Assembly: GCF_004331455.1 (NCBI RefSeq)
Contig: NZ_SJJR01000027.1
Coordinates: 1 to 64,000 of the forward strand
Length of the DNA stretch: 64,000 nucleotides
From: Micromonospora zingiberis
Lineage (GTDB): Bacteria > Actinomycetota > Actinomycetes > Mycobacteriales > Micromonosporaceae
Direction of reading: 5' to 3'
The position numbers and the translations under genes are program-made. This document shows positions 55,000-62,274 of this stretch, one piece after another (positions within the stretch are counted from its first letter, which is position 1; each line of letters opens with the position of its first letter). Below the pieces are notes generated by a model that saw only the letters and a list, made by a program, of their open reading frames with translations, did no database searches and had not been told where the DNA came from.

Positions 55000-55857
55000 T
55001 CAACGTCGGACGGAAAAAATTCCTGGCGGCGGTGGTGTGGAGTCGGTGGCGTGCTCGTCGTGGACCACCGGAGCGCCCCCGACGAAGCGGTCCAGGTCGG
55101 TCCCGGCGAGCACCCGACCCGGAAACCAGTCACCGGCGGCCCGCCGGGTCAGCTCCGCCACCGGTGGCTCCTGACGGCCGGCGACCAGCACCAGGTTGCC
55201 GTAGCGGCGGCCCCGCAGCACCGCGGCGTCGGTGACCAGGCAGGCCCGAGGCAGCACGGTACGCACGGTGGCGACCTGCCCACGGGCGTAACGCAGTGGT
55301 GGGCCGTCGGCGAGATTGGCCAGGTACCAGCCGCCCGGCCGCAGTACCCGGGCGGCCTCGGCGGCGTACTCGACCGAGGTCAGCCGGGCAGGTGTGCGGG
55401 CACCGGCGAACACGTCGGCGACCACCACGTCGTAGCTGGCGTCGCGGGTGCCGGCCAGCGCCGTGCGGGCATCGCCCACCCGGACCTTCAGTCGCGGGTC
55501 GGCCCGCCACGGCAGCGCCCGCCGGACCAGGTCGACCAGGGCGCCGTCCACTTCGACCACCCGCTGGGTCGAACCGGCACGGGTGGCGGCGACGTAACGG
55601 GGGAGCGTCAGCGCGCCGCCGCCCAGGTGCAACACCCGCAGCGGTGTGCCGGCGGGTGCGATCAGATCGAGCGCGGCGGCCAGCCGGCGGACGTACTCGA
55701 ACTCCAGGTGGGTCGGATCGGTCAGGTCCACATGCGACTGCGGGGCGCCGTCCAGCGACAGCGTCCACGAGCCGGGGCGGTCCGGATCCGAGGTCAGCTC
55801 GGCGAGCCCGGTGTCGACCTGTTCGGTGTGCCGGTCCGGGTCGCGGCGGCGGCCCAT
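55000..55857 (-). CDS. spermidine synthase-like methyltransferase-fold protein
   Basis: 285 residues from the ATG at 55857, which shares one base with the upstream stop (TGATG). SpeE-like features: SHVDLTDPTHLEFEYVRRLA, the cofactor loop VLHLGGGALTLPRYVA, the acidic VVEVDGALVDLV, YDVVVADVFAG and GGWYLANLADG. The standard aminopropyltransferase Asp pair after GGGD is replaced by GGGALTL, so true polyamine synthesis is doubtful. Last gene of the SbcD-SbcC-NurA transcript; its role there is unknown. Confidence 0.8.
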   Translation of the reverse strand: MGRRRDPDRHTEQVDTGLAELTSDPDRPGSWTLSLDGAPQSHVDLTDPTHLEFEYVRRLAAALDLIAPAGTPLRVLHLGGGALTLPRYVAATRAGSTQRVVEVDGALVDLVRRALPWRADPRLKVRVGDARTALAGTRDASYDVVVADVFAGARTPARLTSVEYAAEAARVLRPGGWYLANLADGPPLRYARGQVATVRTVLPRACLVTDAAVLRGRRYGNLVLVAGRQEPPVAELTRRAAGDWFPGRVLAGTDLDRFVGGAPVVHDEHATDSTPPPPGIFSVRR

Positions 55858-56810
55858 CAGCGGTTGGTCCGCGCGGCGGCGGTCAGCGCGCGGTGCAGCA
55901 GCCGGGCGTCGCCCAGCCGGGAGCGCAGCAGGCGTTCCAGCCCGGCGATCGGGACGAGGTTCTGCGGGGCCCGGGGATCCTTGTACGGGGTGGAGGCGAA
56001 CCGGGGCAGGGTGACCAGTGACAGATCGGCCAGCCGTACCGCCTCGGTGATCTCCAGGTCGGCCGAGCATTCCAGCCGGACGATGCCGGCCCAGGGTGCC
56101 CCGGCGGCCACCGGCAGCCGCAAATACCACGACCAGCCGCCCCAGGCGGTGCCGAGCCGGAACACCGGCGACCGGTGGCCCGGCGCCAGCCCGGTGACCA
56201 CCGCCGTGAGCCGGGCGTCGAGATACTGGCTGTGCTGGGTCTTGATGTAGCCGAGGGTGCGCGGCAACTGCCGCCGGTTACGTAACGGCCCGTCCACCAC
56301 CAGCAGGTCGTCATCGGTACGGGCGGCGTCGGAGACCTCCACCTCCAGGGCGGTCAGTGGCCCCTGCACCGCAGCCGGCAGCTTGGCCAGCTCACCGGTG
56401 CCGCTGACCCGGTGCACCGGGTAGCGGACGTTGCCGGCCACCACCTCGGCCGCCGACGGACTGGCGGTGAACAGTCCCCGGCCCACCTTGGCGCCGGCCA
56501 GCTGCGCGGCACCGCGGGCCAGGTCGCACCGCACCACCCCGGCGGCGTACGACGCGGCCAGGCCGGGAAGGGCGGTGCCGTCCTCCTCGGCCGTCCAGAC
56601 GCTGGCGTCGATCCGGCGTACCCCGTCGACCAGCAGCACCACGTGCGGGGCCTGGACACCGGGGCGGGGGCCGATCGCCCGCCAGTCCACCGCGGGTAGT
56701 TCGGCGTCGGCGTCGACCTGCGCGCTGCTCGGTGCGGCCGGGCCACCCGCCGACGCCTCGAACGAGGCACCGTACGCCGGATCCCAGGCGTCGACGAAGA
56801 AGCGGCTCAC
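55857..56810 (-). CDS. nurA: NurA-domain 5'-3' nuclease
   Basis: 317 residues from the GTG at 56810, seven bases after the sbcC stop. The NurA signature is VVLLVDGVRRIDA with Asp62 as the first metal ligand; a second acidic patch lies around LLVVDGPLRNRR and a late one in VRLECS. Length fits bacterial NurA. In archaea NurA is driven by HerA to resect DNA ends with Mre11-Rad50; here those partners are encoded directly upstream on the same strand. Family call rests on motif pattern plus context. Confidence 0.82.
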   Translation of the reverse strand: MSRFFVDAWDPAYGASFEASAGGPAAPSSAQVDADAELPAVDWRAIGPRPGVQAPHVVLLVDGVRRIDASVWTAEEDGTALPGLAASYAAGVVRCDLARGAAQLAGAKVGRGLFTASPSAAEVVAGNVRYPVHRVSGTGELAKLPAAVQGPLTALEVEVSDAARTDDDLLVVDGPLRNRRQLPRTLGYIKTQHSQYLDARLTAVVTGLAPGHRSPVFRLGTAWGGWSWYLRLPVAAGAPWAGIVRLECSADLEITEAVRLADLSLVTLPRFASTPYKDPRAPQNLVPIAGLERLLRSRLGDARLLHRALTAAARTNR

Positions 56811-56817
56811 GCGCGTC

Positions 56818-60457: not shown

Positions 60458-60499
60458 CGTGACTGCGGGGCTCCGCTTCGCTGCACTCCTCGCGCTCAC
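60458..60499. repeat. intergenic GC-rich repeat-like spacer between herA and sbcD
   Basis: The minus-strand sequence begins GTGAGCGCGAGGAGTGCAGC and has a regular purine/GC pattern. I recall similar GTGAGCG...GCAG stretches repeated between genes in Micromonospora. It occurs once here, so the repeat status is from memory. Confidence 0.35.
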
Positions 60500-60522
60500 C
60501 TGGTTTGCAACTCGCCCTCGGC

Positions 60523-62274
60523 CTAGAACGGGATGTCGTCGTCGGCGCCGCCGCCGGAGCCCACCACGGCGAACGGGTCGGCGGACTGGGTGATCGAACG
60601 CAGCGTCTGCGACGGTGCGGCCCCGGCCTCGGATACCCGGGTCGCCCAGGCCGGGAACGGGAACTCCAGGCAGAGCGGGACCGGGATGTCGGGCTGGTTG
60701 ACGAACATGGTGCCGGGCTTGGCCAGCAGCGCCCGCTGCCGCTGGGCCGGTGGCAGGAAGCCGTACTCCGGGCGGGACGCCTCGGCCGGGTCGAGCCGGC
60801 CCACCACCCGGATCGCCGAGTTGGTGACGATGCGCCGCTCCACCTCACTGGCGGTCTGCTGGGCGCCGACCAGGATCACCCCGAGCGAGCGGCCCCGCTC
60901 GGCGATGTCGAGCAGCACCTCCTTGATCGGGGAGGAACCCTCGCGGGGGGCGTACTTGTTCAACTCGTCGAGCACCACGAACAGCAGCGGCTTGGCGGTG
61001 CCGGCCTTCTCCTTGCGCTCGAACTCGCTCTTGAGCGTCACACCCACCACGAACCGTTGCGCGCGGTCCGGCAGGTTGTGCAGGTCCACGACGGTGACCT
61101 GGGCGCTCTCCGCAGTGTTGATCGAGTGTGGACGGCGGGTGGCCAGGTCACCCCGGATCAGCCGGGACAGGTCCTTCTTGCTGCCGATCAGCCGGCGGGC
61201 GAAGGCGTTCACCGTGCCCAGGCCGACCGCGCTGCCCGCCCAGTCACCCCGGGTCTCGTCGTCGCTGAGCTGCTCGACGATGTGGTCGACCAGATCGCCG
61301 TAGCTGCCCAGGCGCACCCCGTCGATGCTCACCCCGCCGTCGGCGGGCTGGGCGTAGCGGGCCAGGTGGGCGGCGACCGAGTGCACCACCATCGTGTACT
61401 GCTGGCGCTCGTCGTCGGCGTCGGCGAAGACGTACGGCAGGAGCCGGTCGGCGCAGAACTCGGACAGCGTCCAGTAGAAGCTGTCCACCCCGGTCAGCCG
61501 GCTGCTCACGTCCGGGGTGCCGGAGGAGTCACCGACTCTCGGCGGCGCGTACACCCGGACGTCGGGGAAGGCGTCGGCGACCAGACCGAGCCGGGCGTAC
61601 GCGGCCCGGGTGGCGTCGTCCAGCCGGGTGTTCGGATGGTCGAGGAAGAGCAGGTCCTCGCCCTTCACGTTGAAGATCAGCGCCTTGGCGTTCACCGCGT
61701 CGCCACCGAGCTGCCCGGACCGGAACACCGAGTAGAGCAGGAAGGTGGCGAAGCTGGTCTTGGTGGCCACCCCGGAGATGCCGGAGATGGAGACGTGCGC
61801 GCCCCGGGTGCCGTCCAGGAAGTCGGCGTTGAGGTAGACCGGCACCCCGTCCCGGCCGGTGCCCATCGGAATGCGGCGCTCCATCCGGTCGAAGTGCAGC
61901 GCCCGGGCCCGGGCGTCGCCCTCGGCCCGGTGCACCACCGCGCCGGGCTGCGGCGGCACGTAGAACTCCGGGTCGACCCGGGTGGTGGTGATCTCGGCGG
62001 CCTCCTGCACCTGCGCCGGCAACGTGCCGTCGGCGATGGCGAACACGTCGGAGTCGAACTGGGCGCCCTCGTGCCGCGCCCGGACCTGGGTGACCACCCC
62101 GGCGATCGTCACCGGCTCCCGGTCGGGCAGCTCCCGGCGGGTCACCACCACGTCGTCGAGTTGCAGGTAGCTGCCGGGGGCCACGGCCGTCCAGAACTGC
62201 AACGGGGTGGCGTCGGCGGTGCCGAGCACCCGGCCGACACCCTCACCCGCGACGTCGAACCCCTGGTCAGTCAT
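60523..62274 (-). CDS. herA: HerA-like DUF87 ATPase/DNA translocase
   Basis: 583 residues. An N-terminal HAS-barrel-like part (VLGTADATPLQFW, LDDVVVTRRELPD, VVTQVRARHEG) precedes the RecA-like motor. The P-loop is HVSISGISGVATKTSF (about 163-178), with TKT where GK[ST] is usual; Walker B is LLFVVLDELNKYAP (about 433), and an arginine-rich AERGRSLGVILVGAQQ and NSAIRVVGRLD follow, as in HerA. HerA hexamers pull DNA through NurA at double-strand ends. First gene of the operon with sbcD, sbcC and nurA. Confidence 0.87.
   Translation of the reverse strand: MTDQGFDVAGEGVGRVLGTADATPLQFWTAVAPGSYLQLDDVVVTRRELPDREPVTIAGVVTQVRARHEGAQFDSDVFAIADGTLPAQVQEAAEITTTRVDPEFYVPPQPGAVVHRAEGDARARALHFDRMERRIPMGTGRDGVPVYLNADFLDGTRGAHVSISGISGVATKTSFATFLLYSVFRSGQLGGDAVNAKALIFNVKGEDLLFLDHPNTRLDDATRAAYARLGLVADAFPDVRVYAPPRVGDSSGTPDVSSRLTGVDSFYWTLSEFCADRLLPYVFADADDERQQYTMVVHSVAAHLARYAQPADGGVSIDGVRLGSYGDLVDHIVEQLSDDETRGDWAGSAVGLGTVNAFARRLIGSKKDLSRLIRGDLATRRPHSINTAESAQVTVVDLHNLPDRAQRFVVGVTLKSEFERKEKAGTAKPLLFVVLDELNKYAPREGSSPIKEVLLDIAERGRSLGVILVGAQQTASEVERRIVTNSAIRVVGRLDPAEASRPEYGFLPPAQRQRALLAKPGTMFVNQPDIPVPLCLEFPFPAWATRVSEAGAAPSQTLRSITQSADPFAVVGSGGGADDDIPF

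Follow-up and report, generated by a model that had tools for sequence, protein, structure and literature searches.

Why does an actinomycete carry herA, sbcD, sbcC and nurA side by side, is the set archaeal in type, as the original prediction held, and does the SpeE-like gene that follows it belong to the same unit? In the window, the whole 64,000-nt stretch of Micromonospora zingiberis DNA analysed here, all five genes were read back from the sequence on the minus strand at the positions and with the junctions first described for them. The herA stop codon and the sbcD ATG are separated by 82 nt, sbcD and sbcC overlap by 1 nt in a TGATG at 59292, 7 nt lie between the sbcC stop codon and the nurA GTG, and nurA meets the SpeE-like gene in a further TGATG with a 1-nt overlap at 55857. 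A motif search upstream of herA revealed neither a LexA box nor a clear motif resembling an actinobacterial damage promoter.

The nurA gene (55857..56810, minus strand, ORF P0011) starts with GTG and encodes a putative RNase H-fold nuclease of 317 aa. A significant match to the Pfam NurA model (PF09376) had been proposed as the test of this assignment, and taken literally the outcome was negative: the window protein scored 11.8 bits (about 11–12, E 0.17–0.24) against a cut-off of 21, and a search of the whole genome gave zero matches. Yet this outcome was overturned by three other comparisons with solved NurA proteins. A profile of 37 actinobacterial NurA family members (A1) matched Deinococcus radiodurans NurA (7f6d) at 1.8e-53 and T. 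maritima NurA (1zup) at 7.5e-19, the window NurA as a single sequence found 7f6d at 6.2e-20, and its AlphaFold2 model (pLDDT 92) showed an RNase H-like NurA fold, with 7f6d_G (1.7e-17) and 1zup (4.5e-14) as the top Foldseek matches. Of the 37 family members, 25 match PF09376 at E<=1, the best of them at 2.1e-6, and we judge the miss to be a sensitivity limit of the Pfam model and not the absence of the trait. Residues D62, E156, D173, K190 and R280 are invariant in all 37 members, and D62, K190 and R280 correspond to D53, K201 and R309 of the D. radiodurans protein, while basic motif 3 is partly retained (R270 in 30 of 37; H, Y or F at position 276). Profile and model evidence thus identify a bacterial-type NurA, which is predicted to resect 5' ends together with HerA.

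Pfam DUF87 likewise fails to detect the product of herA (60523..62274, minus strand, ORF P0001), a putative hexameric dsDNA translocase of the HerA/FtsK superfamily and of the Deinococcus type (583 aa). In a phmmer search this protein matched D. radiodurans HerA (7f6d_B) at 4.8e-150, the HerA profile A2 found the same protein at 2.6e-199, and the AlphaFold2 model (pLDDT 86) superposed on 7wrw over its full length with a TM score of 0.88, an rmsd of 2.5 and 49% identity. Its architecture, a HAS-barrel followed by a RecA-like ATPase domain, is homologous to that of DrHerA. The Walker A residues K172/T173 (K175/T176 in D. radiodurans), D207 and the Walker B residues D436/E437 (D487/E488) are invariant in 34 of 34 sequences, and the DNA-contact arginines R444 (R495) and R501 (R552) are present in 32 and 31 of them. 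In D. radiodurans, loss of the mapped NurA and HerA residues inactivates DrNurA-HerA (PMC9960219). In the acidic patch that binds NurA, D76 (D78 in D. radiodurans) is invariant in 34 of 34, the counterparts of E80 and D81 are not conserved, and an acid stands at position 74 in 23 of 34. With profile, single-sequence and predicted-fold matches all leading to the D. radiodurans proteins, the HerA and NurA identities first suggested are real.

The families noted for the two genes in between were confirmed as well. The product of sbcD (59292..60440, minus strand, 382 aa), a Mre11-like nuclease subunit whose true ATG at 60440 was read from the sequence, matched TIGR00619 at 4.1e-52 (177 bits, cut-off 78) and Pfam Metallophos at 7.9e-12 when the longer ORF P0002 was used for the search. 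That of sbcC (56818..59292, minus strand, 824 aa), a Rad50-like ABC ATPase with a central CPVC zinc-hook motif, matched TIGR00618 at 4.2e-76 with 257 bits, albeit below that model's cut-off of 478 bits, in addition to AAA_23 (8.9e-18) and SbcC_Walker_B (3e-11, over its Pfam cut-off). A search of its own genome returned one match, making it the sole SbcC there.

Sequence and predicted folds together identify the unit as a putative bacterial, Deinococcus-type HerA-NurA machine linked to SbcCD, and the proposed archaeal-type complex had to be given up. Although the archaeal HerA-Mre11-Rad50-NurA operon of Sulfolobus, Pyrococcus and Thermococcus also gathers the four functional families in one cluster, Thermococcus HerA matches profile A2 at E 0.08 with a fold TM of 0.57, archaeal NurA is absent among the PDB sequence matches of the 37-member profile even at E 10, and archaeal Mre11/Rad50 models fit the window SbcCD proteins far less well than bacterial SbcCD models do. 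The D. radiodurans NurA-HerA system (7f6d, 7wrw, 7wrx; PMC9960219), by contrast, has a bacterial-type NurA and shares all catalytic residues with the window proteins; it differs in HerA interface acids E80 and D81 and in some NurA basic residues, which are not retained here, and in the linkage of actinobacterial herA and nurA to sbcD-sbcC. Besides, the Deinococcus-Thermus group has been described as lacking RecBCD/AddAB (PMC9960219), whereas the host of the window has AdnAB. The four-gene cluster has already been reported from another bacterium, Oceanithermus profundus, whose nurA-hepA-sbcD-sbcC cluster (PMC5448004) comprises the same four families in the order of the nurA-first actinobacterial loci, but belongs to another phylum, is mentioned there in a single sentence and differs from the window, where nurA is last. 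Our literature search found no experiment on the unit in any actinobacterium and no description of the cluster there, though comparative studies of HerA and its clusters published in 2004 may mention it. The unit is real and under-described, yet not fundamentally new as a repair unit.

We found nurA in 60 of 60 further genomes of the same genus and in 198 of 201 genomes of the family, which indicates that the locus is not a product of chance. The HerA-NurA-SbcCD set is core in Micromonosporaceae and occurs in about one fifth of the sampled actinobacterial genomes, so that a reading of it as an oddity among actinobacteria is not supported. The four genes form an unbroken block in 19 of the 20 other genera compared within the family, their linkage is retained in distant actinobacteria, and the set is also found on Streptomyces and cyanobacterial plasmids. 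Neither the gene order nor the adjacency of the SpeE-like gene is peculiar to this strain, and linkage conserved so far beyond it agrees with the view of the four DNA-end-processing genes as one unit. Two gene orders occur across the phylum, with nurA first in many actinobacteria, and the HerA tree indicates a single change between them. In most loci sbcD and sbcC overlap, and the sbcC-nurA and nurA-herA junctions are short; the herA-sbcD gap, 82 nt here, reaches 0.4–5 kb in some other lineages, which suggests that a physical coupling of SbcCD to HerA-NurA is not required. What the analysis shows directly is the identity of the genes, the integrity of their active sites, their linkage and their distribution.

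A reading of the set as a stand-in for AdnAB is rejected because the same genome contains an intact-looking adnA-adnB pair (at C42) and because NurA and AdnB-like proteins co-occur, the latter being found in at least 37 of 73 NurA-positive versus at least 66 of 323 NurA-negative genomes, which are not independent of one another. AdnAB is not avoided across the phylum, and HerA-NurA-SbcCD adds to it and does not replace it.

We consider it probable that the unit is a chromosomal housekeeping operon for DNA-end resection, in which a HerA-NurA of bacterial type is combined with SbcCD, standing beside AdnAB and with the SpeE-like gene as a neighbour. SbcCD would bind and trim blocked or hairpin ends, whereupon a HerA hexamer would thread the duplex end and pump DNA into a NurA dimer that would cut the 5' strand and leave a 3' tail for RecA, the whole working alongside AdnAB. 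Biochemistry in D. radiodurans suggests a 6:2 HerA-NurA complex and 5'-strand resection, while the linkage and the archaeal precedent hint that SbcCD may cooperate with it. However, deletion of nurA and herA in D. radiodurans gave about 10-fold higher survival of UV and mitomycin treatment, which cautions against taking a simple pro-repair role for granted, and in Thermus HepA influences both UV survival and the mobilisation of DNA (PMC5448004). Together with the loose herA-sbcD spacing in several lineages, these data would suit a HerA-NurA that restrains recombination or clears DNA in some other process (chromosome segregation, conjugation, competence) without resecting for recombination, with SbcCD acting independently. 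We regard this as unlikely, as the residues for catalysis and translocation are preserved, the orthologue resects 5' ends in biochemical work (PMC9960219), and the four genes move jointly onto plasmids and through one rearrangement.

A main role in defence against phages and plasmids, in which HerA-NurA would load on foreign linear DNA ends and degrade them with SbcCD as end opener, appears improbable. Known defence systems do combine a HerA with effector nucleases, the HerA fold matches include the solved HerA-DUF4297 and SIR2-HerA complexes, and the next NurA fold match after the NurA structures is TdpAB, a thermophile ATPase-nuclease complex. The Streptomyces plasmid copy, moreover, adjoins a TIGR02680/TIGR02678/DUF2397 cluster, which we take to be Wadjet-like. 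Against this, the syntenic, near-universal chromosomal presence in the family is unlike that of patchy defence genes and argues for housekeeping, the window neighbours with Pfam matches are non-defence genes, and HerA is near the Deinococcus protein and far from defence HerAs (best PADLOC match mad8 of MADS, 1.1e-8; TM about 0.55). PADLOC returned no match for NurA and, for the SpeE-like protein, only mad2 over a methyltransferase-like core; a HerA-based system with its cognate effector (DUF4297-HerA, SIR2-HerA, MADS) was discarded, with weak superfamily matches only. Housekeeping end resection is thus the more likely role.

The SpeE-like gene (55000..55857, minus strand, ORF P0014) encodes 285 aa with full-length homology to 3gjy, an annotated spermidine synthase (5e-45), and a match to MFS_SpdSyn (4.6e-27), but scores 22 bits against a cut-off of 250 in the curated SpeE model TIGR00417. 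It shares with 3gjy, a presumably corynebacterial protein, a DVFAGA motif and, towards the N-terminus, an SH pair; true spermidine synthases carry the catalytic motif TDP, in place of which DVFAGA stands here. The protein belongs only to the wider aminopropyltransferase-fold family. That all five genes form a single module, in which it acts on the end-processing complex as a modifier or regulator, for instance via polyamines or methylation, is highly improbable: the 1-nt TGATG overlap with nurA recurs in 43 of 81 relatives and the genes adjoin in Micromonospora, Salinispora and Plantactinospora loci, but they do so in just 5 of 20 other genera of the family, the gene was not found within the locus stretch examined in 11 of the 20, genomes outside the family with both genes have them far apart or on separate contigs, and the SpeE-like family is a common multi-copy actinobacterial one (24 of 28 genera; 3 matches in this genome). 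Judged on adjacency it is excluded as a module member and best read as a lineage-specific neighbour outside the core unit; the coupling to nurA noted at first stands, but conservation of the unit does not extend to this gene. Downstream, on the minus strand, lie a syntenic gene for an ECF sigma factor of the PRK09645 type (54224..54784; NF007227, 4.3e-67) and the gene for its partner, a zinc-finger anti-sigma factor (53451..54227; zf-HC2, 2.4e-5; NF052375, 2.2e-11), which overlap by 4 nt in 66 of 67 relatives. About 215–260 nt separate the SpeE-like and sigma genes in relatives, and the latter likely belongs to a transcription unit of its own.

There is dispute over the role of bacterial HerA-NurA, and how it is linked to SbcCD has been described as unknown (PMC4663267); within the literature searched, work on it concerns only Deinococcus and Thermus. 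Because Pfam misses this HerA/NurA branch, annotation tends to leave the unit without a name. We tentatively speculate that Micromonosporaceae and many other actinobacteria might run two full dsDNA-end resection machines, AdnAB and HerA-NurA-SbcCD, with SbcCD passing the ends it has cleaned straight on to the HerA-NurA pump, and that the latter machine might be a mobile four-gene cassette common to plasmids and cyanobacteria. A whole actinomycete family keeps HerA-NurA as a core operon with, in the window's genome, the sole SbcC, beside an intact-looking AdnAB; thus, whether SbcCD feeds HerA-NurA, and why the latter is kept beside an AdnAB-type enzyme, would be directly testable by clean deletions.

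The five genes herA, sbcD, sbcC, nurA and a SpeE-like gene run in that order on the reverse strand from 62274 to 55000, and the gene set and junctions described in the original prediction were borne out by the sequence: sbcD/sbcC and nurA/SpeE-like each overlap by 1 base within TGATG, and 7 bases lie between sbcC and nurA. A further 82 bases separate herA from sbcD. The commonest lengths of the latter spacer in relatives are 11-18 nt; in the window it carries a short dispersed element, GTGAGCGCGAGGAGTGCAGCGAAGCGGAGCC (60469-60499, reverse strand), with three further one-mismatch copies elsewhere in the genome (one on contig C4, two on C12) versus 0 copies of a reversed-pattern control. 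About 220 bases beyond the SpeE-like gene follow an ECF sigma factor and its own anti-sigma factor, and an ATP-dependent DNA ligase (47192-48787, reverse strand; DNA_ligase_A_M, 2e-41) is encoded ~6 kb downstream of the operon.

The Pfam NurA model PF09376 gave no significant match to the window NurA (E 0.17-0.24), an outcome named beforehand as counting against the operon, yet profile, single-sequence, fold and residue evidence upheld the identification. Because of this failure, an alignment of 37 NurA homologues drawn from across the phylum (A1) was built, whose profile retrieved Deinococcus radiodurans NurA (DrNurA, 1.8e-53) and Thermotoga maritima NurA (7.5e-19) from all PDB sequences; the single window sequence found DrNurA at 6.2e-20. 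The AlphaFold2 model (pLDDT 92.3) had as top Foldseek matches 7f6d, a D. radiodurans NurA-HerA structure, and 1zup, T. maritima NurA. The active site is intact: D62, E156, D173, K190 and R280 are invariant in 37/37 A1 members, and D62, K190 and R280 align with DrNurA D53, K201 and R309, each needed for cleavage (PMC9960219).

None of the DUF87 and NCBIfam HerA models scored above cut-off on the window HerA, and D. radiodurans HerA (DrHerA) matched it at 4.8e-150 as a single sequence and at 2.6e-199 through a 34-member profile (A2). The unusual Walker A motif, SGVATKT, and Walker B D436/E437 are invariant among A2 members, while R444 and R501 align with R495 and R552, the arginines through which DrHerA contacts DNA (PMC9960219). 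Of three acids by which DrHerA holds NurA, D78 is kept as invariant D76 and the other two are not conserved. The proposed archaeal-type resection complex was not supported, as the HerA model resembles the Deinococcus structure 7wrw (TM 0.88) far more than Thermococcus, Sulfolobus and defence HerAs (about 0.5-0.6; all query-normalised), and the NurA profile likewise reaches DrNurA. The pair is of a bacterial HerA-NurA type widespread in actinobacteria. The phage Marinitoga camini virus 1 (KP836355.1, 38522-40087) encodes a distant relative of HerA, 24% identical, which carries the annotation 'bipolar DNA helicase HerA'.

nurA is core to Micromonosporaceae, occurring in each of 60 more Micromonospora genomes and in 198/201 from the family (42/44 genera); across the phylum, 84/396 genomes held a match at E <= 0.001, strong in 73. 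Of 20 other genera in the family, 19 keep herA-sbcD-sbcC-nurA as an uninterrupted block, and the same four genes are present in Nonomuraea. Frame splits in sbcC of Micromonospora sp. ATCC 39149 (L182, 7483-9953) and in sbcC and nurA/speE of Verrucosispora sioxanthis (L186, 6545-11822) are probably sequencing errors. A second linked arrangement, nurA-herA-sbcD-sbcC, is parted from the first by one branch of the HerA tree (support 86, short search). Two GTDB families, f23 and f88, each contain both orders, a pattern suggestive of old cassette paralogues or of horizontal exchange. The cassette as a whole can be mobile: the complete first arrangement lies on a 452-kb linear plasmid of Streptomyces sp. 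BB1-1-1 (L189, 8896-16465), and the second on a conjugative plasmid of the cyanobacterium Sphaerospermopsis kisseleviana (L191, 4958-11958), with nurA and herA annotated as "hypothetical protein". The Streptomyces cassette sits ~2.5 kb from a TIGR02680/TIGR02678/DUF2397 cluster, which we take to be Wadjet-like.

The SpeE-like fifth gene is most likely incidental. Its product is homologous to 3gjy, annotated as a spermidine synthase (5e-45), and reached 22 bits against the true-SpeE model (cut-off 250 bits). Whereas the four-gene part of the predicted order is conserved, the SpeE-like gene adjoins nurA (within 100 bases) in only 5/20 other genera of the family, lies 0.4-3 kb downstream in 4/20, and was not found within the stretch covered in 11/20. 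Members of the protein family turn up in 94/101 related genomes, at most 4 matches in each (three in the window's own); for f9 and f13, families that carry NurA, the best match to the SpeE-like protein is on a separate contig or nearly 2 Mb away. Given this patchy adjacency and multi-copy family, the translational coupling in Micromonospora looks like a recent neighbour relation, explicable without any end-processing role.

A search of the window's genome found SbcC as a single copy, inside the operon, and an adnA-adnB pair elsewhere (contig C42, 222941-229845; 1173 and 1160 aa). Mutual exclusion of NurA and AdnB was rejected, the sole use made of these counts: AdnB-like proteins, among the matches listed, co-occurred above expectation in the phylum sample (37/73 NurA-positive genomes versus 66/323 others, ignoring phylogeny).

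The operon is thus correctly observed and deserves annotation, although its surprise in an actinomycete is lessened, since the type is widespread there and the cluster had been noted once before in a bacterium: in Oceanithermus profundus, sbcD and sbcC are reported downstream of hepA, an arrangement likened there to the archaeal cluster (PMC5448004), so that the bacterial cluster has precedent. By analogy with orthologue biochemistry, a HerA6-NurA2 complex would pump the duplex end while NurA cuts the 5' strand during translocation, and linkage together with archaeal precedent suggests that SbcCD may ready ends for it. The net cellular effect of HerA-NurA may not be simple, given that its deletion in Deinococcus improved survival of UV and mitomycin. 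The near-universal presence of the system in the family makes a role in repair more likely than one in defence.
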